From a bacterium (GTDB lineage: Bacteria; UBP15; UBA6099; JAJRTR01): a DNA stretch of 64,000 bases. Location: NCBI GenBank assembly GCA_024278215.1, contig JAJRTR010000182.1:1-64000 (forward strand), in the 5' to 3' direction. Shown here in pieces: positions 14,654-63,001 of this stretch. Numbering within the stretch: position 1 is the first letter of the stretch; each line of letters starts with the position of its first letter. The position numbers were made by a program, and so were the translations under genes. The notes under the pieces were generated by a model. The model was not told where the DNA came from and did not search any database. It worked only from the letters and a program-made list of their open reading frames with translations.

Positions 14654-14832
14654 GAGCCAATTGCAAAATTATGTTCGTAGCGAGGTCGAGCGAAATTGTT
14701 CAGAGCAAGGAGGAGGTGTAAAATCCCCGCGTGCGTACTTGCAGAGTACGTCGAGGACGATTTTGCGCCGACAACGCAGCTATGGACAATAAGCAGCCGA
14801 CCGCAGCAGAATCAGAATTTTGCAATTGGCTC
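14654..14832. repeat. R1 element, full copy 1
   Basis: A 179-bp element bounded by inverted repeats GAGCCAATTGCAAAATT, with a central palindrome CGTACTTGCAGAGTACG. No coding frame is conserved. Other full copies are at 27584-27762, 37186-37363 and 62724-62902. It has the shape of a miniature inverted-repeat transposable element. Confidence 0.85.
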
Positions 14833-15243
14833 TTCTTTGTTATCGTTTTCATTTTTCGCCGCCTCTTCTGGTTACGCTTATAGATCAATATTCATGCCAT
14901 AACCGGCGGCGCATTGTCCGATTACACAAATACCCGGTGTTTACTACACATTTTATTGTTTTGAGAGAAACAACGATTATCGGAACCCGGCTCGCTTTGT
15001 ATACTTCGTTTAACAGTGGAATCTCGTGTTTACAAAATATGGGCGTTTTACTGATTGCCGTTAAGCAACTACCGTAACGCCCGACTCGTCATGTTAGGGA
15101 AAAACGGTAATTATAAAAAGGTTTTATCTATATATATAGCGCAGGTTTTATAAGAATGAATTATTTATGTTTTGGAATATATGATTGGCAAGAATATTGA
15201 TTTCGTATTGTGTATAAATGAAAAGTAACGGGAGGTTATAAGA

Positions 15244-18561: not shown

Positions 18562-19590
18562 ATGGATAACGACAAAAACCGTTCGAGAAGAGAATTTATC
18601 AAGGATACCGCGAAAAAAGTCGCCGTTATCGGTGCCCTGCCGCTAATAGGGACACAGGTATTCAGCAGTGAGCGAGCACATGCGGCGGCGGCGTCATCGG
18701 CGGCGTCATCGGCGGCGGAAAAAGCTAAAGTCGCTCTTGTAATATCAAAGAAACCGGTGCCGGTCGGCAGAGACGCGAAAGCCGTCTTGAGCGATATGCT
18801 GGATGCGGGGATAGAATATATCGCAGGCGGCGACACGGTCCGGTTCTGGAATAAGCTTTTCAGCCCCGATGACCGGGTGGCGATAAAGATCAATAATCTC
18901 GCATATAAAAGAAACCGCGGCCCGATGCTCACGGAAGCCGTCTGCGACAGGGTTTCCGCGGCAGGTGTCGTCCCCGGGAATATCGTGATCTACGAACACA
19001 GCGACGGCAGCCTCAAGCACGCAGGTTACAAGTTGAATTTCGACGGACCGGGTGTTCGCTGCTACGGGACAGATCGTGTGGGCTACATGGCCGAATCCAT
19101 AAAGTCCGGCGCGTGTGATGCCCACTACACAAAGATTCTCGATCAGTGCACAGCACTCATCAACATGCCCATCCTGAAAGCACACACCATGGCGGGTGTC
19201 ACTATCAGCCTGAAAAATCATTACGGTTCTTTTGATAATCCGAGACAGTACCACGGCAACGATTGCGACCCGTTTATCGCCGACATCAACACGGCGGATA
19301 TCATCAGGAAAAAACACCGGCTTGTCGTCTGCGACGCGGTGAAGGTTCTTTTCGCAGGCGGCCCGGACTGGCTCCAGCCGTATACCAGCGACTTCAACGG
19401 GATTCTCGTAAGCACAGACCCTGTGGCCCTCGATGCTGTCGGCGCCAGGATACTAAAGAAATTGCGCAGGAAATCCGGGATAAAACAATTGCCCTACAAT
19501 CCGAAGCCGAAACAGATTGCGACCGCCGCTAAAAACGGTATCGGCATTTCGGACATAAAAAAAATCGACTTCAAACAGATTACTGTATGA
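18562..19590 (+). CDS. Tat-exported DUF362 protein
   Basis: A 342-residue protein of the DUF362 family (PF04015). The twin-arginine motif S-R-R-E-F-I-K (residues 8-14) and a following hydrophobic stretch ending A-H-A-A-A indicate Tat export. The DUF362 core includes D-R-V-A-I-K-I-N, V-I-Y-E-H-S-D-G, I-N-M-P-I-L-K-A-H and the conserved L-K-N-H-Y-G. DUF362 proteins are often found with ferredoxin-type cofactors, but no CxxCxxC cluster is present here, so its cofactor is unknown. Tat export suggests it folds before transport. TGAGGA lies 6 nt before the ATG. It appears to be a single-gene unit. Confidence 0.85.
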   Translation: MDNDKNRSRREFIKDTAKKVAVIGALPLIGTQVFSSERAHAAAASSAASSAAEKAKVALVISKKPVPVGRDAKAVLSDMLDAGIEYIAGGDTVRFWNKLFSPDDRVAIKINNLAYKRNRGPMLTEAVCDRVSAAGVVPGNIVIYEHSDGSLKHAGYKLNFDGPGVRCYGTDRVGYMAESIKSGACDAHYTKILDQCTALINMPILKAHTMAGVTISLKNHYGSFDNPRQYHGNDCDPFIADINTADIIRKKHRLVVCDAVKVLFAGGPDWLQPYTSDFNGILVSTDPVALDAVGARILKKLRRKSGIKQLPYNPKPKQIATAAKNGIGISDIKKIDFKQITV

Positions 19591-19741
19591 TGCGGTCAGG
19601 GAATGATTGCCGGCTCTTTGCTCTTTGCGCCGCAATTGCTGATTATCATGCCGGCGGAGCCGGGCCGGCAGACTGCTGTTCTGCAATAAATAACGAGTAA
19701 CTGGAATTTTTTTGACGTATGTATCGCTGTAGTAACAATGA

Positions 19742-19995
19742 GGAGGGTGCGACACAAAAGTGGGTTTTTGCGAAAAGCGGGACAGGTACCCATAAGCGTT
19801 AACTTAAGCGCGAAATGGGGTATTATGGCGAACTATAGCGCACATTTTTTGCACAGTATCGCATAAGAATGCAACAAAATCCACGTTAAGTTAACGCCTA
19901 TGGGACAGGTACCGCAAAAAACAGCGTTACCAGTCCCTGTTTTTCGCACATTAAAAATGTAGTTGTTTTTAACCCACTTTTATGTCGCACACCCT
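19742..19995. mobile_element. R2 element with an insertion inside it
   Basis: An R2 copy whose right end is the inverted CGCACACCCT terminus, flanked by perfect 8-bp direct repeats AACAATGA (19734-19741 and 19996-20003). It is split by the 112-bp element at 19791-19902. Without the insert and its duplicated target, it is about 131 bp, matching the uninterrupted copy at 27443-27572. Its left end differs from the consensus at three positions. Confidence 0.8.
19791..19902. mobile_element. 112-bp element nested in R2
   Basis: A 112-bp sequence with 17-bp inverted ends (CATAAGCGTTAACTTAA against CATAGGCGTTAACTTAA) inserted into the R2 copy. An 11-bp direct repeat GGACAGGTACC flanks it (19780-19790 and 19903-19913). 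It encodes no protein, so it must have been moved by an enzyme encoded elsewhere. No second full copy was seen in this window. Confidence 0.8.
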
Positions 19996-20037
19996 AACAA
20001 TGATGTAGAGGTAGACACCGATAGTGAGAGCTGCGTT

Positions 20038-21018
20038 ATGTCGGACAGGATAATCAGGAAAGTGTGCATAATCCGGTTGGGCGGGTTCGGCGACATAGTC
20101 GTCTTTGCCGACAGTTTGCGCAACAGAACACGCAACGCTTTCCCCGATGCCGCGATTGATTTCGTGGTAGCGAGCGAGTTTGTTCCGCTGATGGACGGTT
20201 GCGACTTTGTCGACCGCGTAATCGGGCACGACCGCATCGGGGGCCCGGTGGGACTTCTTCCGTTCCTGAAGTTCTGCTCGATGTTGCGAGCCGAAAAATA
20301 CGACCTGCTGATCGACCTGCACGACAACACGCGCAGCAGGCTCATGGGGGCACTCGCGCGACCACGCCGCAGGACATTCGACTTCCCGGACGCGGCGACC
20401 AGTCCGACCGGCGGCACGCGCGGCGATGAAACGCGGCGGTACCGGGGCATAGACTTCCCCGGCGAACGGACTCCGTTGTGGCTCTCGGCCGCCGACAGGG
20501 AATATATCGCGGCGCTCACCGGGGAACTGCGCAGGCCTGTCATAGGCTTTTGCATTGTCGGCTCGTGGGAGACGAAGCGATGGCCGACCCGGCATTTCGC
20601 GGCGCTGGGCGACATGCTCATAAAAAAAATGGACGCCACGATAGTTCTGATCGGCGGGCCTTCCGATAAGATCACTGCTGAAGAAGTCGAGGAAATACTG
20701 CCCGCGGGCAAGGTGGTGAACCTTTCCGGAAAAACATCACTATCGCGTTCGGTAGCCGTCACGCTGATATGTTCCGCAATCGTCAGCAACGACTCCGGGA
20801 TGCTGCACGCCGCCTACCTGTCCGGTGTTCCCCTCGTGGGGCTTTTCGGCTGCACCGATCACACAAAGTTCGGCCACCAGGGGCCGCGTTCGATCCCGCT
20901 CTCCTCGGACTTGCCGTGTTCGCCATGCCACAAACCGGTCTGCCCGCTGGGCACCACGGACTGCATGAACGCGCTGACACCCGAATGTGTCTATTCCGCA
21001 CTGGAAGAACTTTTGTGA
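20038..21018 (+). CDS. GT9 heptosyltransferase-like glycosyltransferase
   Basis: A 326-residue protein of the lipopolysaccharide heptosyltransferase family (GT9, WaaF/WaaQ-like), with GT-B fold. Visible: the N-terminal I-I-R-L-G-G-F-G-D-I-V (17-25 region), the mid-protein W-x-T-R-H-F-A-A-L, and the C-terminal nucleotide-binding S-N-D-S-G-M-L-H-A-A-Y-L-S-G-V-P-L-V-G-L-F-G. It would transfer a sugar (often heptose) to an inner-core acceptor at the inner membrane. It starts at ATG 20038 after G-A-G-A-G; an upstream frame to 19963 reads through the R2 repeat and is rejected. First gene of the 20-27 kb glycan locus. Confidence 0.85.
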   Translation: MSDRIIRKVCIIRLGGFGDIVVFADSLRNRTRNAFPDAAIDFVVASEFVPLMDGCDFVDRVIGHDRIGGPVGLLPFLKFCSMLRAEKYDLLIDLHDNTRSRLMGALARPRRRTFDFPDAATSPTGGTRGDETRRYRGIDFPGERTPLWLSAADREYIAALTGELRRPVIGFCIVGSWETKRWPTRHFAALGDMLIKKMDATIVLIGGPSDKITAEEVEEILPAGKVVNLSGKTSLSRSVAVTLICSAIVSNDSGMLHAAYLSGVPLVGLFGCTDHTKFGHQGPRSIPLSSDLPCSPCHKPVCPLGTTDCMNALTPECVYSALEELL

Positions 21019-21124
21019 AGTGTGGTCTCGTGTGCGGTCGGATTATGGATATTATTCAGAAACCGGCATGTGGATGCAGTATCATTGTTGCTGTTTTCCA
21101 ACGCTATAGAGGATTTTACATTAC

Positions 21125-22291
21125 ATGAGGATCGCCATAGACGTAAGCTCGTTGCGATATAGAAAAACCGGCCTCGAGACCTACACATATTATCTCTTGA
21201 AAGCGCTTTCCAAAATTGCGGTCGATGATGAATTTGTACTGGTAAACAACTCTTTCCGCAGGGGAAAGGCCGCGCCCATCAGCCTTCCGGCATTTGGAGA
21301 CGATTTCAAGTTTGAAGTAAAAAACCCGAAAGTGTCGAAAAAATTGCTGAGGGCCTTGTGGCGCTATTCCCCATACCCGCGTATTGAAACGTTTCTCGGT
21401 AAGCTCGACACCTATCATTCACCGACAATCGACGCGCTTCCGAGCACCGCGGCACGCAAGGTCCTGACCGTGCACGACATTTACCACAGGAAAGGCGACT
21501 TCAACCCGCCCTGGTTTACAAGCGAGCTGATGGAGTTCTTCCCCGCGGAAATCGCAAAGGCCGACGTCGTAATCACAGTCTCGGAATCCACAAAAAGAGA
21601 CATCATCGAGGAATTCGACACCGACCCCGACAAGATCAAATGCGTATATAGTGCGGCCGGCGAGAACATGAGACGCATCACCGACACGGCTGCCGTCGGC
21701 AGGATAAAGAAACAATTTGGAATAAGTCGCGATTACATGCTGTTCCTCGGCGCGCTCGGCAAAGTCAAGAATGTTGTGCGGATCGTCGAAGCATATAATA
21801 TCCTCCGACAAAGACAAAGAGACACGCCGCAACTTGTGCTTGCCGGAGGGAAAGGTTACGGTTTCGAGGAGATCAGGGCGGCGGTTACGGAATCGCCGTA
21901 CAGCGATGATATTATTCTGCCCGGCTATGTCGATGACGCCGCCGCGCCCGTGTTGATGTCGGGCGCGCTGTTTTTCGTGTTTCCGTCACTGTACGAGGGT
22001 TTCGGTATCCCTGTGCTCGAGGCGATGACCTGTGGTGTCCCGGTGCTGACGTCCTCGGTCGCGTCGCTGCCGGAAGTAGCCGGAGACGCGGCCGTAATGG
22101 TTGACCCTTGCAGTGTTGAGGAAATCGCCCATTCGATGGAACTCCTGGCGGAATCACCTGCACTCAGAGCCAAGCTTGTCGGGAAAGGATTTGCACAAAG
22201 CAAGCGTTTCTCATGGGAAAGATGCGCCGCGGAAACGCTTCGGATATACAAACATGATTTTGTAACCTGTTCAGCAGGGAGGAAACAATGA
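21125..22291 (+). CDS. GT4 glycosyltransferase
   Basis: A 388-residue GT4 family (group 1) retaining glycosyltransferase with GT-B fold. The C-terminal nucleotide-sugar domain has F-P-S-L-Y-E-G-F-G-I-P-V-L-E-A with the E-x7-E pair at Glu291/Glu299, and N-terminal motifs L-E-T-Y-T-Y-Y and S-E-S-T-K-R-D. The donor and acceptor sugars cannot be inferred. It is related to the 24.3 kb GT4 gene. Its stop overlaps the next start as ATGA (22288-22291), so it is translationally coupled to the GT2-radical SAM gene. Confidence 0.9.
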   Translation: MRIAIDVSSLRYRKTGLETYTYYLLKALSKIAVDDEFVLVNNSFRRGKAAPISLPAFGDDFKFEVKNPKVSKKLLRALWRYSPYPRIETFLGKLDTYHSPTIDALPSTAARKVLTVHDIYHRKGDFNPPWFTSELMEFFPAEIAKADVVITVSESTKRDIIEEFDTDPDKIKCVYSAAGENMRRITDTAAVGRIKKQFGISRDYMLFLGALGKVKNVVRIVEAYNILRQRQRDTPQLVLAGGKGYGFEEIRAAVTESPYSDDIILPGYVDDAAAPVLMSGALFFVFPSLYEGFGIPVLEAMTCGVPVLTSSVASLPEVAGDAAVMVDPCSVEEIAHSMELLAESPALRAKLVGKGFAQSKRFSWERCAAETLRIYKHDFVTCSAGRKQ

Positions 22292-24035
22292 AAGCTTCAA
22301 TAATGATAATGACTGGTGATGCCGGGGGCCGACTGGCGAGAAACTGCCTGAGAGCTGTCAAAAAGAACACACCTCCTGAATTGATCAAGGAGATCATCAT
22401 CGTCGACGCAGGCATCAGTCCCGACTTCAATCACGCTTCGGAAATCAATAAAATACTGAAGATATTCAGCGGTAACGTGTTTGTGCATCTCGACGACGAC
22501 ACAATCGTCGAACCCGGGTGGCTGAAGGCGATGATCGACTGCGCCGAATCGGACGGCAGGATCGGCATCGTCGGCTGCGTGATGAAGAACGGGCGTGGCA
22601 AGATTGTTCATACCGGCAGCACGATAGACCCGGACTTTTACGGTATCGATCTTAATAATCCGATAAATGAGCCCAGAGACCGTAAATATGTTTGCAGCGC
22701 CGTAATGCTCATCAAGCGTGCCCTTGTGGAAGAGATCGGATATTTCGACGAATCGTCTTTCAGAAAATTCTACCAGGATACCGATTATTGCGTGAGAGCA
22801 CACAAGGCGGGTTTCCGTGTCGTCTGCGCGCACAACGCGTCGGCTGTCCACCTTTTCGGGGCCACTGTCAAAAAACGGGCGGACAAAAACGAATTGCATA
22901 AAATGGATCATGAAGCTTTCAGGGCAAAATGGGAGGGTTCCAGCCTGATGCCCTCACTCGACATCATTGAAGTCACTAAACGGGGCGTGACCTACCCTTC
23001 TTTCGCGTGCAACATAAAGTGCGCTTTCTGCTATTACCGCAAAAGCGACAACCGGGAACATAGACCCATCGAGGAAATGAAAGCCGAGATGGACCGCTTC
23101 AGGTCTGAATACGGGCATGATTATGTCGACATCACCGGCGGCGAACCCACTGTTTACAAACACATTACCGAACTGGTTGCTTATTGTCGTCAAATCGGAT
23201 TGCTCCCGACGATTATCACAAACGGACAGAAGCCTCAAATTATTCCGGAACTCATACAAAACGGACTCGAAGACCTGCTCGGCAGCATCCACGGCTACAA
23301 AGAAGACTGCGACGCGGCGATGAATAAGAAGGGCGCGTTCGACACCATCGTCCGCACATTCGAGTCATGCAGGGAACTCGATTTTACTTTCCGCACGAAC
23401 ACAACGCTCCTGAGATACAACTATCGGAACCTTCCACGCCTCGCGGAATTCCTGACGGATATTCGGCCGCGAATCGTCAACTTCATCAATTCAATCCGCA
23501 CTCAGGCACTACCTGGTCGAAAGAGAAACAAATCGAATTCCAGATCGACTTCACTCATCTCTCTCCTTTTGTCAAAGAAGCGATCGATATACTCTCCGAT
23601 GCCGGAATATGGGTAAATGTAAGGTATTATCCGCTGTGCCGGCTTCAGGGATATGAACAACACGTATGCAATTTCCACCAGTGGCAATGGGACCCTTATG
23701 AGTGGGACTACGTTTCCGGCAACATGCTATCGAAAAAGGAAGTCAAGAAAATCAAGAAGAGCGCGAAGGCCGCCGGAATATCGACCGATACCTCCAATGG
23801 AGATATCAGGCAGTGGTATACAAAAAACGTGACCTGCAAGGAGAATCTTTTCATAGAATCGTGCGCCAGGTGCCGCAACCGCCTTATATGTGACGGTATT
23901 TATACGCAATATGCGCGAAATTTCGGGACAGATGAGTTCGAACCGGTCAAGGGTGACACCATTCTCGATCCACTGTATTATAGGAGAAACAACCAGGCCT
24001 GGCGCGTGCTGAAAACAGATTGCAACTGTTCATAG
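22288..24035 (+). pseudogene. GT2-radical SAM fusion, frameshifted
   Basis: About 582 codons encoding two modules. Residues 1-225: a GT2 glycosyltransferase with D-D-D (69-71) in H-L-D-D-D-T. Then a radical SAM domain with C-x3-C-x2-C at Cys241/245/248 and D-I-T-G-G-E-P-T. Near 23485-23495 the frame breaks: the upstream frame reads I-N-S-I-R and ends at 23616, while the downstream frame continues F-N-P-H-S-G-T-T-W and ends at 24035. One missing T in AATTCAAT would join them as I-N-F-N-P-H. The downstream part has additional Cys clusters (C-A-R-C-R-N-R-L-I-C) like a SPASM/twitch domain. The fusion could glycosylate and modify a glycan or peptide. The break may be real, a sequencing error, or slippage. 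Confidence 0.8.
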
Positions 24036-24088
24036 CGCTGCGAAGAGCATTTCTTCCCCTGGTGAAGTCTCGAAAGAAACGCGGAATC

Positions 24089-24265
24089 TTGTCAACAAAG
24101 AAAAGACGTAAGATGGGTTAGCGTAATAACGATAAAAGGGCGAGGACATCCTGCACCGCCTCGACTTATAACTTGTACAAACCGTTTTCGCGAGAAATAT
24201 GCTCTGGCGCGGTACGGTGACCGCGCTCTACACTCAATACGTAAAAACAAAGTTGACACGACAGC
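24089..24265. repeat. R4 element
   Basis: About 177 bp. The left end CTTGTCAACAAAGAAAAGA recurs at 34851-34924 and 40074-40121, and the right end GTTGACACGACAG is an inverted counterpart. Its inner part shares CGAGAAATATGCTC with 35046-35090 in reverse. It occupies most of the space before the GT4 gene; the remaining bases show only a short upstream region. Confidence 0.6.
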
Positions 24266-24315
24266 ACTATCTTAAAAAGCGATCGGGCGAAAGGCTCCGC
24301 GATGGGAACACGAAA

Positions 24316-25479
24316 ATGAAAATAGCCGTCAATGTCGAAATACTTCGGCGTCAGCTCGTGGGCGTCGCCCGGTATACCTTCCATCTTATATCCGGGCTCT
24401 CCAACCTGCTCGAACCCGATGACAGTCTTCTGCTTGTCAATAACTCATTCAAGCGGGGAAAAGATCGGCAACCGTCTCTGCCTCCGGGACTTTCCAATCA
24501 GTGCGTCTACAAAAATATCATCATTTCCAGAAAACTGCTGATGTTTCTCCAGCAGAAGATAGGCCTGCCACGCATCGAGCACCTGACAGGCCGTTTCGAT
24601 GTATATCATTCCACATGGCTCGACCCGGCGGTCCAGGGCACATCTCCTTTCCCTTCGACAAACGCCGCGCGGGTTATCACTATCCACGATTTGTCCTTCA
24701 ATAAAATCGACAGAAATTATTTCGAGACGGGATTTATCGAGAAAATCGACGCTTACATGCGTAATGGAGCACGGGTGGCGGATGCGATAATCGCCGATTC
24801 CGAGAGCACACGCCGCGATGTTATTGAAATACTCGATGTACCCGCGGATCGAATAACTACAATTCATCTCGCGGTCGACCCGAAGTTTCATCCAATCGCC
24901 GACAGGGAAACTGTGTCCGGAACCTGCGCCCGTTTTTCCGGCGGGATGCCTTTCTTCCTCTATGTCGGAACTCTGACCAGACACAAGAATATCGTAAATG
25001 TCATACGCGCATTCGAAATATTTCAGGCGGGATTTTCCGAAGACTTCCGACTGGTGCTCTGCGGCGGGAACGGATGGCGGCACGAGGAAATTTACGACGC
25101 GGCGCGTGGTTCCGCGCTCCGCGACAATATCATTCTCACCGGTCGGCTGGACGACGACTTGCTGCCGATCCTGATGAACGGCGCGACGGGGTTCGTCTTT
25201 CCCTCTTACTACGAAGGGTTCGGACTGCCCGCGCTGGAGGCCATGGCCTGCGCAACACCGGTCATCGCTAGCAATGTCTCTTCACTTCCGGAGATTGTCG
25301 GCGACGCGGGATTGCTTGTTGAGCCGGATGATATTGAAGCCATTGCCCATGCCATGTTCCGGCTTGCCGATGACGCGCAACTGCGCAGTGAACTCAGCAG
25401 GAGAAGCCTGCGTCGCAGCGCCGGTTTCTCATGGGAACGCTGCGCGTGCGAAACGCTCGCGGTCTATCGTTCATTATGA
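24316..25479 (+). CDS. GT4 glycosyltransferase
   Basis: A 387-residue GT4 family glycosyltransferase, paralogous to the 21.1 kb gene: both begin with R-I/K-I-A-V/I-D/N-V and contain L-L-L/V-N-N-S-F-K/R-R-G-K. The C-terminal motif F-P-S-Y-Y-E-G-F-G-L-P-A-L-E-A carries the E-x7-E. The shared S-W-E-R-C-A-x-E-T-L ending suggests a recent duplication within the locus. The ATG at 24316 has GGGAACACG upstream. An upstream frame to 24199 would be translated from R4 sequence and is rejected. Confidence 0.88.
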   Translation: MKIAVNVEILRRQLVGVARYTFHLISGLSNLLEPDDSLLLVNNSFKRGKDRQPSLPPGLSNQCVYKNIIISRKLLMFLQQKIGLPRIEHLTGRFDVYHSTWLDPAVQGTSPFPSTNAARVITIHDLSFNKIDRNYFETGFIEKIDAYMRNGARVADAIIADSESTRRDVIEILDVPADRITTIHLAVDPKFHPIADRETVSGTCARFSGGMPFFLYVGTLTRHKNIVNVIRAFEIFQAGFSEDFRLVLCGGNGWRHEEIYDAARGSALRDNIILTGRLDDDLLPILMNGATGFVFPSYYEGFGLPALEAMACATPVIASNVSSLPEIVGDAGLLVEPDDIEAIAHAMFRLADDAQLRSELSRRSLRRSAGFSWERCACETLAVYRSL

Positions 25480-25554
25480 TTGGTCTGTACGATTCCACCG
25501 TGGATGTTGTGAACGAGTGAAACGACATGTACAATGCTCATGTTCATTTTTCAC

Positions 25555-25580
25555 CCGCATCTGTGAAATATGCGGGTTAT
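25555..25580. repeat. R3-type hairpin end, solo
   Basis: Palindromic CCCGCATCTGTGAAATATGCGGG between two glycosyltransferase genes. A possible cleavage or recombination remnant of the R3 family; nothing else is recognised in 25480-25703. Confidence 0.5.
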
Positions 25581-25703
25581 AACTTGATGGTATGTCATAA
25601 AAAGTTTATTATGGACTGGAACAGATAGGGTTTATACTCACAATCTCGATATGACCAAAATATTTTCTACTGGAACTGGAACGGGGAAAGGTTTATCAGG
25701 CAG

Positions 25704-26504
25704 ATGATCCCGAAAAAACTTCATTATTGCTGGTTTGAGAGGGACAACTACACGCCGCTTGCTTTGAAGTGCATGGAAAGTTGGAAAAAACACCTGCCGG
25801 AATACGAAGTGATTGCGTGGAACGATGATAATTTTGATGTCAATTGCAACCAGTATGTAAAAGAAGCTTACGAAGCGAAAAAGTGGGCCTTCGTCTCGGA
25901 CTATATAAGATTGTACGCCCTTTACCACCACGGCGGGGTATATATGGACGCCGACCTCGAAGTCCTGAAACCCCTGGACCGTTTTCTTGTCCATTCCGCT
26001 TTTACGGGGTATGAAGACGAAGGCGTCATATTGGCGGCGCTTTTAGGTGCCGAAAAGGGACATCCATGGATAAAAATGCTGCTGGACGACTACGCAGACA
26101 GACGGTTCATCAAGACCGACGGCACTTACGATGAGACGGCAAATGTGATTCCCATAACAGCACGAACCATAGAAAAGTACGGCATAACCCTGAATAACGA
26201 GTTATTGACTTTCGGTGAGGATATCACGTTATACCCCAAAGAGTACTTCTGCCCTATCGACTACAAAACATGGGCTCCGAACATTACGGACAACACATAC
26301 ACGTTCCACCATTTCGCCGCAGGGTGGTGGGATGAAAAGGAGCGAGAAGAGCGGCAGCACAAGTTGCGTTACCGGAACTACTTGAAAGAAAAACGCTACA
26401 AAGAGGCGGCGGAGGAAATGCGAATGGCGTACAGCTACTCGAAGAAGCCGAAGCATCTTTTGATAAGCCTTCTGCTGTCGGCTGTCGGGGCTATAAAAAA
26501 GTGA
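25704..26504 (+). CDS. GT32-like capsular glycosyltransferase
   Basis: A 266-residue glycosyltransferase of the Gly_transf_sug/GT32 type. It begins with I-P-K-K-L-H-Y-C-W-F and has the sugar-binding D-x-D in Y-M-D-A-D-L-E-V. Family members transfer mannose, galactose or similar sugars in capsule and exopolysaccharide biosynthesis. The C-terminal K/E-rich helix is usual. It is a soluble protein, likely at the cytosolic membrane face. A GGGGAAAGG upstream of the ATG is 13 nt away, so the ribosome binding site is only fair. Confidence 0.88.
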   Translation: MIPKKLHYCWFERDNYTPLALKCMESWKKHLPEYEVIAWNDDNFDVNCNQYVKEAYEAKKWAFVSDYIRLYALYHHGGVYMDADLEVLKPLDRFLVHSAFTGYEDEGVILAALLGAEKGHPWIKMLLDDYADRRFIKTDGTYDETANVIPITARTIEKYGITLNNELLTFGEDITLYPKEYFCPIDYKTWAPNITDNTYTFHHFAAGWWDEKEREERQHKLRYRNYLKEKRYKEAAEEMRMAYSYSKKPKHLLISLLLSAVGAIKK

Positions 26505-26576
26505 CCGGTGTGGCCGGGACGTGCTCGACCGGCATCATCCGGAAAACCGCGCTGTTTTTGGGAGGAACACGTTAAT

Positions 26577-27458
26577 TTGGACACGCGCAACCCCGCAAAC
26601 AAGCCCGGACTGTCTCTCCCGGAACGTCCGAAGATCAGTGTGGTTATTCCTTGCTGCAACTCCGAAAAAACTGTACTCGATGCCGTCGATTCCGTTCTGA
26701 GGCAGAGCGAGCGCGACTTCGAGTTGATCGTTGTGGATGACGGCAGCACCGACAATACCGCGGCGCTTGTAGAGTCACTGGCCGACCCGCGCATAAAACT
26801 CGTCCGGCAGGAAAACAAAGGCGCGGCTGCCGCCCGCAACACCGGCATCAACACCGCGCGCGGCGACTATGTAGCGTTTCTCGATCACGACGACGTGTGG
26901 TTCCCGGCCTTCCTCGAAAGAACCGTCACCCTTCTCGAAAAAGAACGCCGGGCGGTGATGGTCGCCGCTAATCAGTACTGGCAAAAACACCCCGACGAAA
27001 CAGACATGGAAACACTGCACGACTGTGTGGGGTTCGACAACTCAAAAGGCCTGATATTTTTCGAAGATATTATTCAGCGCAACATAATCTCGACATCGGC
27101 GTGCGTGGTGCGCAGGAAAACGCTCTTGCAGCACAGTTGTTTTGACGAGGGGCTCAAAGTGGCTGAAGATTATCATCTCTGGCTGAAAATCGCCGCTTCG
27201 CAAGGTGAGATACTCGTCGTCGCCGAGCCGCTCGGCATTTCCCGCCGATATGTCGACGGCAGCCTTGTAAAAGACAAGCTTCTTATGGCGCGCGACGGGT
27301 TGTTGTGTCTCGATAAATTCCATCAATCACATGGCCACCTTCTTTCCGGTGCCGAGCACAAGGCATTCAGAAAGATGCGGCGCAACACACGGCTTGGATT
27401 GCTTTACAGGGAACTCCGCAAGAAACTGCGTTCTTGTTTATACGGGTGTGCGACATAA
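26577..27458 (+). CDS. GT2 glycosyltransferase, C-terminus altered by repeat
   Basis: About 293 residues of GT2 family. Motifs: I-S-V-V-I-P-C-C-N-S-E, V-V-D-D-G-S-T-D-N-T, A-A-A-R-N-T-G, and the D-x-D in D-H-D-D-V-W-F. I chose the TTG at 26577 because GGGAGG lies 11 nt upstream; an upstream GTG at 26508 has no comparable site, but the choice is uncertain. The final residues G-C-A-T and the TAA are encoded by the left end of the R2 element at 27443, so the natural C-terminus may have been cut by insertion. Last gene of the glycan locus. Confidence 0.85.
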   Translation: MDTRNPANKPGLSLPERPKISVVIPCCNSEKTVLDAVDSVLRQSERDFELIVVDDGSTDNTAALVESLADPRIKLVRQENKGAAAARNTGINTARGDYVAFLDHDDVWFPAFLERTVTLLEKERRAVMVAANQYWQKHPDETDMETLHDCVGFDNSKGLIFFEDIIQRNIISTSACVVRRKTLLQHSCFDEGLKVAEDYHLWLKIAASQGEILVVAEPLGISRRYVDGSLVKDKLLMARDGLLCLDKFHQSHGHLLSGAEHKAFRKMRRNTRLGLLYRELRKKLRSCLYGCAT

Positions 27459-27572
27459 AAGTGGGTTAAAAACAACCATATTTTTAGTGTGCGAAAAACA
27501 GGGACTGGTAACGCTGTTTTTTGCGTACCTGGCCCGCTTTTCGCAAAAACCCGCTTTTGTGTCGCACACCCT
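27443..27572. mobile_element. R2 element, uninterrupted copy
   Basis: A 130-bp element with ends GGGTGTGCGACATAAAAG and the near-complement; a possible 6-bp direct repeat TTTATA flanks it (27437-27442 and 27573-27578). It aligns in reverse with the copy at 19742-19995. Internal palindromes are present and no coding frame is conserved. Confidence 0.8.
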
Positions 27573-27583
27573 TTTATACTGAA

Positions 27584-27762
27584 GAGCCAATTGCAAAATT
27601 CTGATTCGGTTGCGGTCGGCTGCAATTGTCCATAGCTGCGTTGTCGGCACAAAATCATCCTCAACGTACTCTGCGAGTACGCCTGCGGGGATTTTGCACC
27701 TCCGCCTTGCTTCTGAAAAATTTCGTTCGACCTCGCTACGAACATAATTTTGCAATTGGCTC
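27584..27762. repeat. R1 element, full copy 2
   Basis: A 179-bp R1 copy, in reverse orientation relative to copy 1, only 12 bp from an R2 element. The central palindrome reads CGTACTCTGCGAGTACG. The fabG-like gene promoter starts right after its right end. Confidence 0.85.
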
Positions 27763-27769
27763 TGAATAT

Positions 27770-27797
27770 TTGACAGTGATCGAGGAATTGTTATATC
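27770..27797 (+). promoter_or_regulatory. Candidate sigma70-type promoter
   Basis: TTGACA at 27770-27775 and TATATC at 27792-27797 with a 16-bp spacer, about 60 bp upstream of the SDR gene start. It begins 8 bp after the end of the R1 element. Confidence 0.5.
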
Positions 27798-27858
27798 ATA
27801 GCACTCGGAATACACAGGTCATTTATCAACGAATAAAAATGTGTTAGGGGGAAGTTAT

Positions 27859-28671
27859 ATGTCTATACTTGATGATTTCAAGCTTGATGGTAAAGTGGCA
27901 GTTGTCACTGGCGCGGGACGCGGAATCGGCCAGACGACGGCAGTTTCGTATGCCGAGGGCGGCGCGAAGGTCGTTATCGCGGACCTGGACGCGGACCCGG
28001 CGAACGAAACGCTCGAACTGGTGAAAAAAGCTGGCAGCGACGGGGTCGTGGTCACGGGCAACGTCGCCAAAAAGGACGATTGTGCAAAAATGGTCAAAAC
28101 CGCTCTCGACAAGTTCGGCGGTATCGACATCATGACAAATATCGCGGGCATCACGCGCGACGGCATGCTCCACAAAATGGACGAAGACGCCTGGAATTTC
28201 GTCATTGACATCAACCTGAAAGGGACTTTCCTTTGCAGCCAGGCGGCCATTGCCGCCATGCGCGACCTCGCCAAGGCGGAAGGCAAGGATAAGAAATCCC
28301 GAAAAATCATCAACACCGCTTCCATCGCCGGCATGTCGGGCAACAAGGGCCAGGCAAACTACTCGGCCGCCAAGGCCGGTATCATCGGCATGACGAAATC
28401 TATTGCTAAAGAGGGACTCATGTTCAATATACAGGCCAATGTCGTAGCTCCCGGCTGGGTCGACACACGCCTCACCGCCGAGAAAAAGGAAGGCCAGACC
28501 ATCGGCATCCCCGGCCAGGACCGCCAGCAGACTCTTATGTATATGCAGATCATGGGCATCCGCACAGGCAAACCCATCGACCTCGCGCGCGTGTTCTATT
28601 TCCTCGCGTGCCCGGCTTCCGACTATCTCACCGCGCAGTGCATCAACGTCAGCGGCGGACTGCTGACATGA
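27859..28671 (+). CDS. FabG-like short-chain dehydrogenase/reductase
   Basis: A 270-residue SDR resembling 3-oxoacyl-ACP reductase (FabG). NAD(P)-binding motif T-G-A-G-R-G-I-G (17-24), N-I-A-G (94-97), Ser155 and the Y-x3-K pair Tyr168/Lys172. FabG reduces 3-oxoacyl-ACP with NADPH; since no other fatty-acid genes are near, a separate role in sugar or alcohol metabolism is possible. The ATG at 27859 has AGGGGGAAG upstream. It is followed by its own terminator and is preceded by a promoter, so it is likely a single-gene unit. Confidence 0.88.
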   Translation: MSILDDFKLDGKVAVVTGAGRGIGQTTAVSYAEGGAKVVIADLDADPANETLELVKKAGSDGVVVTGNVAKKDDCAKMVKTALDKFGGIDIMTNIAGITRDGMLHKMDEDAWNFVIDINLKGTFLCSQAAIAAMRDLAKAEGKDKKSRKIINTASIAGMSGNKGQANYSAAKAGIIGMTKSIAKEGLMFNIQANVVAPGWVDTRLTAEKKEGQTIGIPGQDRQQTLMYMQIMGIRTGKPIDLARVFYFLACPASDYLTAQCINVSGGLLT

Positions 28672-28705
28672 TTACGACGCAATGAAGTATTCAGAATCTT
28701 TCCGA

Positions 28706-28735
28706 AGCCGTCCGGCACATCAACGGGCGGCTTTT
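28706..28735 (+). terminator. Rho-independent terminator
   Basis: Stem AGCCGTCCG (28706-28714) with CGGGCGGCT (28724-28732), followed by TTT. It lies 35 bp after the SDR stop and separates it from aroB. Confidence 0.75.
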
Positions 28736-28740
28736 CTCAT

Positions 28741-28770
28741 TTGACATTGTGCGCGCCCTTCTGATAGATT
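28741..28770 (+). promoter_or_regulatory. Candidate promoter of aroB
   Basis: TTGACA at 28741-28746 and TAGATT at 28765-28770 with an 18-bp spacer, 31 bp upstream of the aroB ATG. Confidence 0.5.
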
Positions 28771-28801
28771 GCACTCGACTATTGCAAGCAGGTAATAATA
28801 T

Positions 28802-29914
28802 ATGAAAAAGAACAATGCTATAAGATACAAAGTTATTGTCAGGCCCGGCGGCGGGCGCGACTACCCGATCCTCATCGGCAACAATATCATGTCCTCGCTG
28901 AAAAACGCCGTCGCCGGTATATCCACAAACTGCCGCGTACTGCTGGTATCCGACAAAAAAGTGGCGTCGTTCTATCTCGAAGACGCCCGAAAAGGCATCG
29001 CGGGCGCCGGAGCCGACATTCAGACGGAAGTGCTGCCGGCAGGTGAGAAGCAAAAAAATTTCAGGACTTATGCAAAGTTGATAAACAGGCTTGCCGGGAT
29101 GGACGACGCGCGTGACCTCATTGTAGCCGCGCTTGGCGGTGGTGTCGTGGGCGACGCCGCGGGGTTCGCCGCTGCGACATACCGGCGCGGCATCCCGCTG
29201 ATCCAGATTCCAACTACGCTGCTCGCTTGTGTCGACTCGAGCGTCGGCGGCAAGACCGCTATCGACCTGCCGGAAGGTAAAAACCTCGTCGGCGCGTTCC
29301 ATCAGCCGCGCGCCGTGATCGTCGATCTCGACACGCTCGCGACCCTGCCGCCTCGCGAACTACGCGCCGGTATGGCGGAAGTAATAAAATATGGTTTCAT
29401 TATGGACGCGAAATTCACAGCGAAACTCGAGAAGCGGATCGACCGTTTGCTCGGACTCGATTCGACAGAAATGGCCGCCGTTGTCAAGCGTTGCTGCGAG
29501 TTGAAAGCGCGGGTAGTAAAAGCCGACGAGCGCGACACGAAAGGCGCGCGCGCGATTCTCAACTTCGGACACACGTTCGCGCACGCTGTCGAGACTGCCC
29601 GCGGCTACACGAAATACCGCCACGGCGAGGCAGTCGGTGTTGGAATGGTCTGCGCCGCCGAATTGTCCGAACGCGCCGGAATGCTCGACGCGGGCGGCGC
29701 GGCGCGTGTCGAGCGGCTTGTCGATGCCTGCGGCCTGCCCGTGAAGATCGACGGCGCGGCCCCGGGCGAACTCATCGACCTCATGCAGAGGGACAAAAAA
29801 ACGAAAGGCGGCAAACTCCGTTTCGTGCTCCTCGAATCGATCGGCAGCGCAAAACTCGTCGGCGATATACCGGTGCGGCTGGTCTCCGCCGTCCTTAAAA
29901 AGAGATGCGTCTGA
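28802..29914 (+). CDS. aroB: 3-dehydroquinate synthase
   Basis: A 370-residue AroB. It converts DAHP to 3-dehydroquinate in the shikimate pathway. Visible: the NAD-binding G-G-G-V-V-G-D-A-A-G-F (112-122), P-T-T-L-L-A-x-V-D-S-S-V-G-G-K-T (137-152), N-F-G-H-T-F-A-H-A-V-E (metal-binding His) and Y-R-H-G-E-A-V. Length is normal. The ribosome binding site is AGGTAAT. It stands alone without other aro genes, as is common. It is followed by 500 bp of gene remnants. Confidence 0.97.
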   Translation: MKKNNAIRYKVIVRPGGGRDYPILIGNNIMSSLKNAVAGISTNCRVLLVSDKKVASFYLEDARKGIAGAGADIQTEVLPAGEKQKNFRTYAKLINRLAGMDDARDLIVAALGGGVVGDAAGFAAATYRRGIPLIQIPTTLLACVDSSVGGKTAIDLPEGKNLVGAFHQPRAVIVDLDTLATLPPRELRAGMAEVIKYGFIMDAKFTAKLEKRIDRLLGLDSTEMAAVVKRCCELKARVVKADERDTKGARAILNFGHTFAHAVETARGYTKYRHGEAVGVGMVCAAELSERAGMLDAGGAARVERLVDACGLPVKIDGAAPGELIDLMQRDKKTKGGKLRFVLLESIGSAKLVGDIPVRLVSAVLKKRCV

Positions 29915-30042
29915 ACTTCGCATGACGACGCTGTTGATGATAGAATATCACTATGTAAGCTTATATGCAGACCACTCTGCAGATGAACGAAGAACTACGA
30001 AACTAAAAAACAGATATGACAAGCACAACATCGGGGTAAAAT

Positions 30043-30282
30043 ATGAAACTCAAGAGACTGAAAACAGCAGGCTTCAGAGGCATATCAGGCACACTCGACA
30101 TCGACTTCACTGGAAGCGGCGGAATGTTCCAGCCTTTTTTATTCAGCAGTCCTGTACAATCTGAAAAAGAGAATCGAGACGCATTCCGGTCCTGTTTGCT
30201 CCTCATAAGACGTCGGCAATACGTTAGTTTGTCAACGCTTTTGATGATTTCTCAAATTCCGGGATTTATAACACTATTTTAA
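30043..30282 (+). pseudogene. Remnant of an AAA/SMC-like ATPase gene
   Basis: The first 25 or so codons (M-K-L-K-R-L-K-T-A-G-F-R-G-I and L-D-I-D-F) match the usual opening of SMC/RecF-type AAA_23 ATPases, with a GGGGTAAA ribosome binding site. The rest of the ORF does not continue the family (no Walker A follows). It looks like the start of a truncated gene. Confidence 0.5.
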
Positions 30283-30285
30283 CGT

Positions 30286-30414
30286 GCGGCGGAAGTCAAC
30301 CTGATCGAGGACCCGATGGCCGAATACGACCCGATCACCATCAACGGCTCGACGCGCAGGGTTGCTCTCGGACATCATGAGATAAAGACTTTAAAAGTAT
30401 CGAAGCAGCTGATG
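30286..30414 (+). pseudogene. Remnant of a GH38 alpha-mannosidase 3' end
   Basis: In-frame A-A-E-V-N-L-I-E-D-P, a short gap, then G-H-H-E-I-K-T-L-K-V resembles the C-terminal end of GH38 alpha-mannosidases (where E-C-N-L-x-E-E and E-I-K-T-L-x-L occur). No upstream catalytic domain exists here. It lies directly before the CgeB-like gene and probably resulted from a deletion. Confidence 0.4.
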
Positions 30415-30416
30415 AT

Positions 30417-32144
30417 ATGGCCACACACAACAGTATTTTCGCGGAGAATATCGAAGCGTTGCGCCGAAATGACAGCCGCATGGCGGATGCGCTTGAAAAT
30501 GCCGCTGCAAGCGTGATTCCATATCAATTGGAGTCGTCACGTTCGGGGCTGCCGACGTTCTCGATTGTTAATGGCGCAAAAAAGAGGTACGTGCACAGCA
30601 AAGTCGATCCATTGCTCGAAGCTGCGAAAATGCTGGTGGCCTCGGATGTCGAAGGTGTGCGTACTCTAGTAATATGCGGCCTGGGACTTGGCTACATACT
30701 GAAAGCAATCGAGAAGTATTATAAAACACTTCCGTTCGTCATCATAGCAATCGAGCGCAGCCCGGAAGTTCTGGCCGAAGGCCTGCGCCATATCGACATT
30801 TCTTCCATTCTTGGCAATTCGAACTTCAAACTTTTCGCCGGAGACTGTGCGGACGATCTCATTCCAACGGTCCGCGAGCCGGTCCGCTATATTTTTATCC
30901 CGCCACTTTTTTCGCGTGACGAAAATTATTACGCACATTTCCTGCGGCGCGTCATGAAGAGCCTGGTTACTGAAAAAAGTCGCAAAACTCTGAAAATAGC
31001 ACTCCATATATATCCGTTCCTTTTCGACAGTCTGAAAAGAACTCTGCGGAATATGGGGCATGATGTGAAAACGATACGCGGGTCCGGAAACGTTGTCAGA
31101 AAATTGTCGGATGCCGTTCCGGACATCGTTGTTTCGGTCAATCTGCAACCCGAGCTTGCACACGCATGTAAACTGCTGCACATTCCCTATGCAGTCATCG
31201 GTATCGATGCCGTTGTGAATTCCGAGCTGCTCGATCCCGGCCTTGCCGCCGACTCGACACACCTTTTTCTGTTCAATAAATCCGACGCGCAACTTTTCAA
31301 TGATATCGGATACAAAAACGCATTCCATTTCCCGCTGGGAACAGATACGGATATTTTCAAACCTGTCTGCCCTCCGCCCGGCGCAACGGCGTCCGACATC
31401 TCTTTTGTCGGCCACTCATTTACGTCGGATGTCAACGAGTACAGGGAATCGATCGTTCCGAACCTGACCGAAATAGTATCGAGCGCCTCCGATACCGGCA
31501 TAGCCGAGGCTTCCGAGCGCGCCTTGTTCTTTTTCAGAGAAGCACTTGAAAAGCAGTGTGAAGATCATTTTACATATACTCTCGATTCCTTTTTTGGAGC
31601 GAATCCTGAGCGTGTCTCCGAACTTCGGAAAATATTCTCCTGTGAGACCGTAGGGACGTTGCCTGTCCTTCTCGGCAAAGAGGCATCGTGCAGAAAGCGG
31701 CTCGAGATAATCTCGAATATCGCCGCCCGGTACAGAATAGACGTCTATGGCGACGACGGATGGCGCGAAGCTTCAGGCCGGATGCTGAAGTTACACGGTC
31801 GGGTTCCCTACGGAAAACTCCCGGATATTTATTGTGCATCCGCGATAAACCTTAATATCAATCGCGTATATGCGACAGACCCCGTGCCGCTGCGCGTGTT
31901 CGACATAGCCGCCTGTGGCGCATTCGTCATGTCGGACCGTTCGTCGGACCTTGTCGACATATTCGAGCCGGACACCGAGATCGGCGTCTTCAGTTCGCTG
32001 CGCGAAATGCACGAAAAGATTGATTTTTTCCTCGATCATCCCGAACAGCGAAAAGCGGCAGCGGAGCGAGCACGAAAAAAGGTTGTCGAAAAATACTCCC
32101 TGAGGCATCGACTCGATATTATTCTTGACCTTTGCCTGGAATAG
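30417..32144 (+). CDS. CgeB-like glycosyltransferase with MptE/Maf-like N-domain
   Basis: A 575-residue protein. Residues 1-200 resemble the DUF115/MptE-like domain of motility accessory (Maf) proteins: T-L-V-I-C-G-L-G-L-G-Y. Later parts match the CgeB/DUF3880 and Glyco_trans_1_2 arrangement, with P-L-R-V-F-D-I-A-A-C-G-A-F-V-M-S-D and D-L-V-D-I-F. CgeB-type proteins are proposed glycosyltransferases of surface or spore polysaccharides; Maf proteins glycosylate flagellin. The combination suggests modification of a surface protein or glycan. The ribosome binding site is weak. Confidence 0.75.
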   Translation: MATHNSIFAENIEALRRNDSRMADALENAAASVIPYQLESSRSGLPTFSIVNGAKKRYVHSKVDPLLEAAKMLVASDVEGVRTLVICGLGLGYILKAIEKYYKTLPFVIIAIERSPEVLAEGLRHIDISSILGNSNFKLFAGDCADDLIPTVREPVRYIFIPPLFSRDENYYAHFLRRVMKSLVTEKSRKTLKIALHIYPFLFDSLKRTLRNMGHDVKTIRGSGNVVRKLSDAVPDIVVSVNLQPELAHACKLLHIPYAVIGIDAVVNSELLDPGLAADSTHLFLFNKSDAQLFNDIGYKNAFHFPLGTDTDIFKPVCPPPGATASDISFVGHSFTSDVNEYRESIVPNLTEIVSSASDTGIAEASERALFFFREALEKQCEDHFTYTLDSFFGANPERVSELRKIFSCETVGTLPVLLGKEASCRKRLEIISNIAARYRIDVYGDDGWREASGRMLKLHGRVPYGKLPDIYCASAINLNINRVYATDPVPLRVFDIAACGAFVMSDRSSDLVDIFEPDTEIGVFSSLREMHEKIDFFLDHPEQRKAAAERARKKVVEKYSLRHRLDIILDLCLE

Positions 32145-32160
32145 CGAGAAAGGACATAAT

Positions 32161-32748
32161 ATGAGAATGAACAACAATAGCTCAATGTTGATATTAACAA
32201 CAACAATAATAATATTATTCTGCATTCCGACAATATGCGGATGCAACCGGCAGAAAACAGAAAAACAAGAGGGGGTTGCAGCAATGACAATGAAAATCGA
32301 AAGTCCGGCGTTTGCCGGAGGCGGCAGGATTCCGGCAGGGTTCACATGTTCCGGCGCGGACATCTCACCAGCGCTCAAATGGACGGCACCGCCTGAAGGA
32401 ACCGTGGAACTCGTTCTTATTATGGACGACCCCGACGCGCCGATGGGCACCTGGACCCACTGGATTCTTTATGGACTCGACCCGGCCACGCGCGAACTGC
32501 CTGAAGGCGTCTCGAAGGGCACAACAGCACCGGAAATCGGCGCGAAGCAAGGCATAACGAGCTTCGGCAGACCCGGCTACGGCGGTCCGTGTCCGCCACC
32601 AGGTCCCGACCATCGTTATTTCTTCAAACTCCATGCGCTCGACACCGCGACGAACCTGCCCGCCGGCGCTTCACTGCGCGAGGTGGAACACGCGATACGT
32701 GGTCACATCATCGCGGAAGCGCAACTTATGGGCACATTCAGCAGATAG
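32161..32748 (+). CDS. PEBP/Raf-kinase-inhibitor-like lipoprotein (YbhB family)
   Basis: A 195-residue protein of the phosphatidylethanolamine-binding protein family (YbhB/YbcL). Residues 14-30 are hydrophobic and end I-C-G-C, a probable lipobox, so it is likely a lipoprotein. The PEBP motifs are M-D-D-P-D-A-P and G-P-C-P-P-P-G-P-x-H-R-Y. Bacterial YbhB proteins have no firmly known substrate. It starts 16 bp after the CgeB-like stop (GAAAGGA ribosome binding site), so the two genes may be cotranscribed. Confidence 0.9.
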   Translation: MRMNNNSSMLILTTTIIILFCIPTICGCNRQKTEKQEGVAAMTMKIESPAFAGGGRIPAGFTCSGADISPALKWTAPPEGTVELVLIMDDPDAPMGTWTHWILYGLDPATRELPEGVSKGTTAPEIGAKQGITSFGRPGYGGPCPPPGPDHRYFFKLHALDTATNLPAGASLREVEHAIRGHIIAEAQLMGTFSR

Positions 32749-32779
32749 CGCCGGCAAAGCGGTTTCACAGACAGCTACA

Positions 32780-32978
32780 CCGCATATTTCGCCAATGCGG
32801 GCCAAAAATCGGGAGAATGCCTGTAATGATAAGGCGCGGCAAGTGAGTGGGGAGGGAGCAGCCGGCCAGCCGGCCTCTTGCGCAAAATGCCGGTATGTGA
32901 CCGATCCCGAATCGCCGACGCAACGCAGTAGAACAGGCGTTATCGTGATTTTCCGGATTCCTTTGTGAGAAATCCGGG
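32780..32978 (+). mobile_element. R3 element, copy A
   Basis: A 199-bp element with a hairpin at each end: C-C-G-C-A-T ... A-T-G-C-G-G at the left, and GGATTCC..GAAATCC type at the right. Copy B (34437-34635) is about 90% identical in inverse orientation. There are no terminal inverted repeats; the two end hairpins differ. This structure resembles non-autonomous IS200/IS605-type elements. It lies downstream of the PEBP gene. Confidence 0.8.
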
Positions 32979-33020
32979 CTATGGACAATTGCAGCCGAAT
33001 CAGAATCTTGCAATTGGCTC
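32979..33020. repeat. Partial R1 end
   Basis: Right end of R1 (CTATGGACAATTGCAGCCG to CAATTGGCTC), joined directly to R3 copy A. The left half of R1 is missing, so R3 may have entered an R1 copy or the copy was deleted. Confidence 0.65.
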
Positions 33021-34846: not shown

Positions 34847-34924
34847 ATAGTGTCGTGTCAACAAAGAAAAGACGTAAGATGGGTTAGCGTAAAAACGATA
34901 AAAGTGATAGGACGCGGTCATCGC
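34847..34924. repeat. R4 left end
   Basis: TGTCGTGTCAACAAAGAAAA and the following bases through GATAAAAG match the left half of the R4 element at 24089. It is followed immediately by an R2 element, then by an inverted internal piece of R4 (35047-35090). Confidence 0.6.
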
Positions 34925-35046
34925 AGGGTGTGCGACATAAAAGTAGGTTAAAAACAACCACATTTTCAATGTGCAAAAACAGGGACTGGTAACGCTGTTT
35001 TTTGCGGTACCTGTCACGCTTTTCGCACTTTTGTGTCGTACGCCCT
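34925..35046. mobile_element. R2 element, copy 3
   Basis: A 122-bp R2 copy with ends AGGGTGTGCGACATAAAAG and CACTTTTGTGTCGTACGCCCT style. It is shorter than the others by an internal deletion, and no target duplication is visible. It is set inside or beside R4 sequence. Confidence 0.75.
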
Positions 35047-37150: not shown

Positions 37151-37185
37151 TTCTTTCAAAGGTATTCAATAATGAAGATACGTAT

Positions 37186-37363
37186 GAGCCAATTGCAAAA
37201 TTATGATTCTGCTGCGGTCGGCTGCTATAGTCCATAGCTGCGTTGTCGGCGCGAAATCGTCCTCGACGTACTCTGCAAGTACGCCTGCGAGGATTTTACA
37301 CCTTCGCCTTGCTCTGGACAATTTCGCTCGCCCTCGCTACAAATATATTTTTGCAATTGGCTC
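37186..37363. repeat. R1 element, full copy 3
   Basis: A 178-bp R1 copy between the secreted protein and the HTH gene. Ends GAGCCAATTGCAAAATTATG and complement; the central palindrome is CGTACTCTGCAAGTACG with one mismatch. Same orientation as copy 2. Confidence 0.85.
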
Positions 37364-40073: not shown

Positions 40074-40121
40074 TATTGTCGCGTCAACAATGAAAAGACG
40101 TAAGAAAATAATTTAGCCCGT
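40074..40121. repeat. R4 left end, solo
   Basis: TTGTCGCGTCAACAATGAAA and the following bases match the left end of R4. The 39933-40185 gap contains nothing else recognised. Confidence 0.5.
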
Positions 40122-62583: not shown

Positions 62584-62723
62584 TTTTTCCTCCCTGATCT
62601 TCAGCCGCGAAAACGTCCATGTTTCCTATATTTATATTTATCGGACGAATCGGGTGGAACTTTAACATTTTTTGTGATATTGATAATTCGATTGAAGATT
62701 ATGCGGAAAAAAAGAAAATTATT

Positions 62724-62902
62724 GGGCAAATTACAAAATTATGTTCGAAGCGAGGTCGAACGAAATTTTTCATAAGCAAGGCGGAGGTGCAAAATCCCCG
62801 CAGGCGTACTCGCCGAGTACGTTGAGGATGATTTTGTGCCGACAACGCAGCTATGGGCAATTGCAGTCGACCGCAGCCAAATCATAATTTTGCAATTGGC
62901 TC
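62724..62902. repeat. R1 element, full copy 4
   Basis: A 179-bp R1 copy with a degenerate left end (GGGCAAATTACAAAATT) and intact right end; central palindrome CGTACTCGCCGAGTACG, in which the loop base changed but the stem is perfect. Same orientation as copy 1. Confidence 0.8.
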
Positions 62903-63001
62903 TATTGTAAAAACAGCATTTATTTATATATCAGGGTTCATTTATCACAGTTTTTTGACGAAAACTAATATAAGAAAGCGTCAGAGAAAACGGTATTGGA
63001 C

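Follow-up and report, generated by a model that had tools for sequence, protein, structure and literature searches.

The window, a 64,000-nucleotide stretch of DNA from an uncultured bacterium, harbours a group of glycosyltransferase genes in which the sequences for a GT2-family glycosyltransferase and for a radical SAM enzyme follow one another on the forward strand in two different reading frames (Table 1). Pfam assigns the neighbouring genes to GT9, GT4, GT4, a GT32-type capsule glycosyltransferase and GT2, which places the gene in a surface-glycan locus.

A preliminary description of this DNA had proposed that a GT2 domain and a C-x3-C-x2-C radical SAM core are split over two frames, and that the gene is translationally coupled through an ATGA overlap to a GT4 gene of a polysaccharide operon. 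Both open reading frames, the Pfam domains and the cysteine motif were recovered, as were the overlap, a GGAGG sequence ahead of the start codon and the glycosyltransferase neighbours. Positions 22288-24035 are confirmed as a single predicted gene of ~582 residues, with an N-terminal GT2 domain and a C-terminal radical SAM domain, interrupted by one frame break. Taken on its own, the frame 3 open reading frame contains no domain found by Pfam. An Rfam scan of positions 19000-33000 gave no match.

Table 1. Coordinates of the GT2-radical SAM gene, its motifs and the adjoining genes of the glycan locus (positions are those of the window)
Feature	Position	Strand	Basis
GT9 (heptosyltransferase-like) glycosyltransferase, same locus	19963..21018	+	Pfam Glyco_transf_9 2.1e-31
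GT4-family glycosyltransferase, upstream, translationally coupled to fusion gene	21125..22291	+	Pfam Glycos_transf_1 1.1e-30; overlap in sequence
Shine-Dalgarno GGAGG, 5 nt ahead of fusion-gene ATG	22278..22282	+	sequence
ATGA overlap of GT4 stop and fusion-gene start (4 bases)	22288-22291	+	sequence
Frame 1 open reading frame, 442 aa	22288-23616	+	ORF list
GT2 glycosyltransferase domain (GT-A fold)	22288..22932	+	Pfam Glyco_tranf_2_3 1.8e-8, Glycos_transf_2 1.4e-7
GT2 motif DDD	22492-22500	+	aligned with L017 and L020
GT2 motif QDTDYC (acidic)	22774-22791	+	aligned with L017 and L020
Radical SAM core, residues 237-389	22996..23454	+	PF04055 3.1e-23
CxxxCxxC of radical SAM core	23008-23031	+	sequence
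GGEPT of radical SAM core	23137-23151	+	sequence
Frame 3 open reading frame, 222 aa, ATG at 23367	23367-24035	+	ORF list
Frame break, frame 1 to frame 3	23485..23495	+	homology; codon-model switch at 23489; sequence
C-terminal radical SAM part in frame 3, putative twitch-like region and stop	23490..24035	+	family alignment
Premature frame 1 stop, after ~42 out-of-frame residues	23614..23616	+	ORF list
RYYPLC, predicted auxiliary-cluster Cys	23622-23639	+	invariant in family alignment
CARCRNRLIC, predicted auxiliary-cluster Cys	23862-23891	+	invariant in family alignment
Downstream GT4 glycosyltransferase, same glycan locus	24199..25479	+	Pfam Glycos_transf_1 6.8e-35

Three dispersed repeats are also present in the window. 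A MITE-like element of ~185-190 nt bounded by palindromic ends (GAGCCAATTGCAAAATT...AATTTTGCAATTGGCTC) lies at 14654-14837, 27573-27766, 37178-37363 and 62723-62913, its copies being up to 93% alike and found in either orientation. A 61-nt repeat occurs just 3' of the fusion gene (24087-24147) and again at 34853-34913, the two copies being 92% alike; related but shorter copies lie at 40074 and 54589. Another intergenic repeat (GGTGTGCGACATAAAAGTGGGTTA...) is found at 19904-19995, 27444-27525 and 34925-35015, its copies matching by up to 100% over 41 nt.

Relatives with fused or paired domains

The preliminary description had staked its proposal on homologues of the joined 582-residue protein, and in particular on GT2-fused homologues of its downstream part: several exist. 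A scan of genome contigs with the single frame 1 protein gave no match; the scan with a three-sequence alignment of the radical SAM part yielded 154 relatives, 80 of which were kept. L017, a 6.3 kb contig of a Planctomycetota MAG, encodes the same GT2-radical SAM protein intact in one frame, with 54% identity to the window protein overall (53% in the GT2 half and 56% in the radical SAM half). L020 is a close copy that is in frame across the junction, its gene being cut by the contig end, and L021 and L022 are GT2-radical SAM fusions with a more distant GT2. The reverse order occurs in large multidomain proteins of Deltaproteobacteria and Desulfarculales, namely radical SAM-GT2-TPR-radical SAM in L030 (3652-7083) and radical SAM-GT2-TPR in L039 (5962-8778), beside which L033 and L038 group on the tree.

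The window protein and L017 are joined with an SH-aLRT of 96 and form, with L018, L019 and L020, a five-member clade with an SH-aLRT of 99. Fusion to GT2 requires at least three changes on the radical SAM tree. Unfused arrangements are found within this same clade: the GT2 and radical SAM genes of L019 share 4 nt, and L018 has a GT2 of the same subtype ~0.4 kb away from its radical SAM gene. Most of the sampled members of the radical SAM family are not fused to GT2. Of 88 genes immediately neighbouring the family, up to 20 encode GT2 enzymes and 13 encode ABC transporter ATPases, the two commonest kinds; the GT2 count is weak evidence alone, as GT2 is common in any glycan locus. Judged from these gene sequences, the GT2-radical SAM fusion is real and recurrent.

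In a broader set of 386 genomes there were 8 matches, including the source genome and G138, apparently the genome of L020. The plasmid collection contributed one partial GT2 match and the viral collection two distant radical SAM matches only. One IMG/VR contig labelled viral, L097, carries a distant member of the radical SAM family and may represent host contamination. No paper on a GT2-radical SAM fusion was found in the open-licence subset of the literature.

Two further arrangements were observed in the family. In Nitrospirota of the Magnetobacterium type, its members adjoin GT2 genes (L023:4945-7038, L028:4930-7041 and relatives), and these proteins possess an N-terminal domain of ~350 aa that has no Pfam match above cut-off. 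Two to three paralogues share a single locus in L059 (5968-11204) and also in L067, L072 and L075.

Position and nature of the frame break

The radical SAM relatives align colinearly with frame 1 through VNFI and then with frame 3 from FNP on, so that the conserved motif VNFIxFNP spans the junction. Past this point only frame 3 is open, and its alignment to L017 scores 580; the other two frames score 35 and 37 and contain 5-6 stops. A Viterbi model of codon usage, trained on the source genome and blind to homologues, switches at 23489 and leaves a 125-nt non-coding-like, out-of-frame tail up to the frame 1 stop. Homology and codon usage therefore agree with the join that had been claimed near 23485-23495. 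As assembled, the gene is not the one unbroken frame expected of a functional bifunctional enzyme: it breaks at ~23489 and terminates at the premature stop.

In a sample of ~224 kb of coding DNA from the source genome, all other same-strand switches leave tails of 70 nt or less that resemble ordinary gene boundaries, a few of them measuring 50-70 nt. The break is an isolated event, one in the ~224 kb of coding sequence sampled. The ratio of third to first-second codon-position divergence against L017 is 2.13 in the GT2 domain, 1.87 in the radical SAM core and 2.02 past the break, where all family-invariant residues are intact and no second lesion is present. As constraint is equal before and after the break and the invariant residues are kept, the break is either recent or an error of assembly. 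The fusion is absent from the six examined genomes of the same order, which leaves no near relative as a reference for the frame.

The chances are close to even that the mutation is genuine and recent, in which case the organism would make a GT2 with a dead, truncated radical SAM tail and the locus would be a recent pseudogene of the fusion. The rarity of such breaks in the assembly and the lack of a homopolymer at the site that could provoke a read error both speak for a genuine mutation; the intactness of every invariant residue downstream speaks against it, and isolated indels do occur in metagenome assemblies. Glycan genes are frequently phase-variable, a general consideration that would favour a phase-variable switch, or programmed frameshifting, as the link between the two frames. 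At the junction, however, there is neither a homopolymer nor a tandem repeat nor a slippery heptamer (X-XXY-YYZ), which makes both mechanisms unlikely, and L017 and L020 are unbroken at this point: a link of this kind is very improbable. Hardly credible is a pair of separate overlapping genes, the second beginning at the ATG at 23367, since this ATG, although present, has no Shine-Dalgarno sequence ahead of it, the first ~40 residues read from it are non-homologous, and homology starts at the junction, colinear with frame 1.

Domains and their known counterparts

The N-terminal half is a GT2 glycosyltransferase by its Pfam matches above the gathering threshold, by a DDD motif that is invariant with L017 and L020, and by matches to GT-A structures. 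It resembles the GT2 family (Pfam Glycos_transf_2 / Glyco_tranf_2_3) in its GT-A fold, the DDD and acidic QDTDYC motifs and its setting in a glycan locus; it differs in bearing a C-terminal radical SAM enzyme and in having no NCBIfam equivalog above cut-off among the matches listed.

Membership of the C-terminal half in the Radical SAM superfamily is established by the PF04055 match, by CxxxCxxC and GGEP in a partial TIM barrel and by an AlphaFold model of L017 (pLDDT 87.4, pTM 0.76), both domains of which are well formed. The GT half of this model matches GalNAc-T GT-A structures, and the radical SAM half has structural matches to SkfB, SuiB, BlsE, viperin and DesII.

Exactly seven cysteines are invariant in 28 family members: three in CxxxCxxC, all kept in 28 of 28 rows, one in RYxPxC and three in CxxCx5C, the post-core residues being invariant in 28/28 and 27/27 rows of the family alignment. 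With three cysteines for the radical cluster, the four post-core residues fit one predicted auxiliary [4Fe-4S] cluster; this half is probably twitch-like, and it is not a full SPASM domain with two clusters. Of the SPASM-like cysteines described earlier, four invariant post-core residues stand; a full SPASM assignment does not, as the seven-cysteine motif is lacking and the Pfam models for SPASM find nothing here even when E<=10 is allowed. The NCBIfam twitch model NF033640 scores 43.7 bits against L023, with a cut-off of 170.

With SPASM and twitch radical SAM enzymes (SuiB, SkfB, BlsE, PqqE, MoaA), CxxxCxxC, GGEP and a C-terminal cysteine region are shared, with profile matches of 1e-15 to 1e-20, whereas the window family has exactly four invariant auxiliary cysteines instead of the seven of SPASM, matches no SPASM model and is fused to or lies beside GT2. 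Among solved radical SAM enzymes, BlsE comes closest by profile; it is a cytosylglucuronate decarboxylase and acts on a sugar acid, but the match is confined to the core, and for this reason fixes no reaction. The BlsE model TIGR04466, for which more than 400 bits are expected, gives 60 bits with the window and 51 with L017. The model for prokaryotic viperin, pVip (NF038283, cut-off 180 bits), gives 56 and 54 bits, and matches to pVip in PADLOC do not extend beyond the core. Among the HxsC / HxsC4 maturases (TIGR03977, NF038332), HxsC4 aligns near full length to the radical SAM half of L017, but at 67 bits against an NCBIfam cut-off of 500. The matches to BlsE, SuiB and viperin are remote and mostly core-only, and fix neither substrate nor reaction; no assayed activity was found for any member of the family.

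None of the NCBIfam matches listed attains the cut-off of its model, so that the family has no name below superfamily level in this resource. The predicted radical SAM half belongs to a broad, widespread family of glycan loci that carries no NCBIfam or Pfam name below that level, and what is new here is an architectural variant within it.

A candidate enzyme for sugar editing

The gene probably encodes a bifunctional glycan enzyme in which the GT2 adds a sugar and the radical SAM half alters it, with one break, recent or artefactual, at ~23489. Several lines of evidence converge on this reading: the two domains, the intact L017 and in-frame L020 proteins, the other fusions, the unfused adjacency within the same clade and the GT2 and ABC transporter ATPase genes among the family's neighbours, together with the seven invariant cysteines, the AlphaFold model of L017, the equal codon-position constraint and the BlsE profile match. 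Against it stand the unfused state of most family members sampled, the remoteness of the BlsE, SuiB and viperin matches and the weakness of GT2 adjacency alone, together with the consideration that the break may be genuine and the radical SAM half dead in the source strain.

The order of the domains, their motifs and cysteines and the surroundings of the gene are seen in the sequences; we infer an order of steps, a substrate and a chemistry. The product of this surface-glycan operon would combine a GT2 of GT-A fold with a radical SAM enzyme carrying one predicted auxiliary Fe-S cluster of the twitch-like kind. The GT2 would attach a sugar to a glycan that is either lipid-linked or part of the core; with SAM and its 4Fe-4S cluster, the radical SAM domain tethered to the GT2 would then generate a 5'-deoxyadenosyl radical that takes a hydrogen from the attached sugar or from a neighbouring glycan residue. 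The auxiliary cluster might take part in electron flow, and the product would be an oxidised, epimerised or deoxygenated residue. It is plausible, as far as sequence comparison goes, that the fused enzyme both makes and modifies a sugar. From the gene as assembled, only the GT2 and a truncated radical SAM core devoid of the auxiliary cluster would be made.

A radical SAM enzyme and a GT2 also act in one pathway in mycofactocin, whose MftC and MftF differ from the present protein in being encoded by separate genes and in having a peptide substrate. A comparable system, in which a ribosomal peptide is modified by the radical SAM half and glycosylated by the GT2, could account for the weak matches of L017 to mycofact_glyco and mycofact_rSAM (53 and 51 bits, respectively), and for the profile alignment with the peptide cyclase SuiB over most of its length. 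These scores are nevertheless far under the respective cut-offs of 280 and 265 bits, no small precursor-like open reading frame is conserved among the seven loci compared (the window and L017 to L022), and the neighbours are glycosyltransferases and ABC glycan exporters. The low scores and the lack of a conserved precursor make the peptide reading less likely than sugar editing, and in itself improbable; the glycopeptide variant of the original proposal gains no support from these results.

Implications for surface-glycan chemistry

The radical SAM enzymes with known sugar substrates, such as DesII, BlsE, NeoN and BtrN, belong mainly to antibiotic pathways. A radical SAM family with repeated fusion or coupling to GT2 and ABC glycan exporters, across many phyla, would be a sign that surface polysaccharides undergo radical chemistry. 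As the fused protein links the radical reaction with a single defined glycosyl transfer, this reaction becomes testable, and the intact L017 protein provides a usable construct. The sugar-editing reading can be extended, tentatively and with somewhat less than even odds, to a class of bifunctional glycan enzymes that spans phyla. Their GT2 would transfer a sugar to the surface polysaccharide, and the twitch-type radical SAM domain tethered to it would remodel that sugar while the polysaccharide is still growing. If true, this would amount to post-glycosylation radical editing of bacterial surface glycans.
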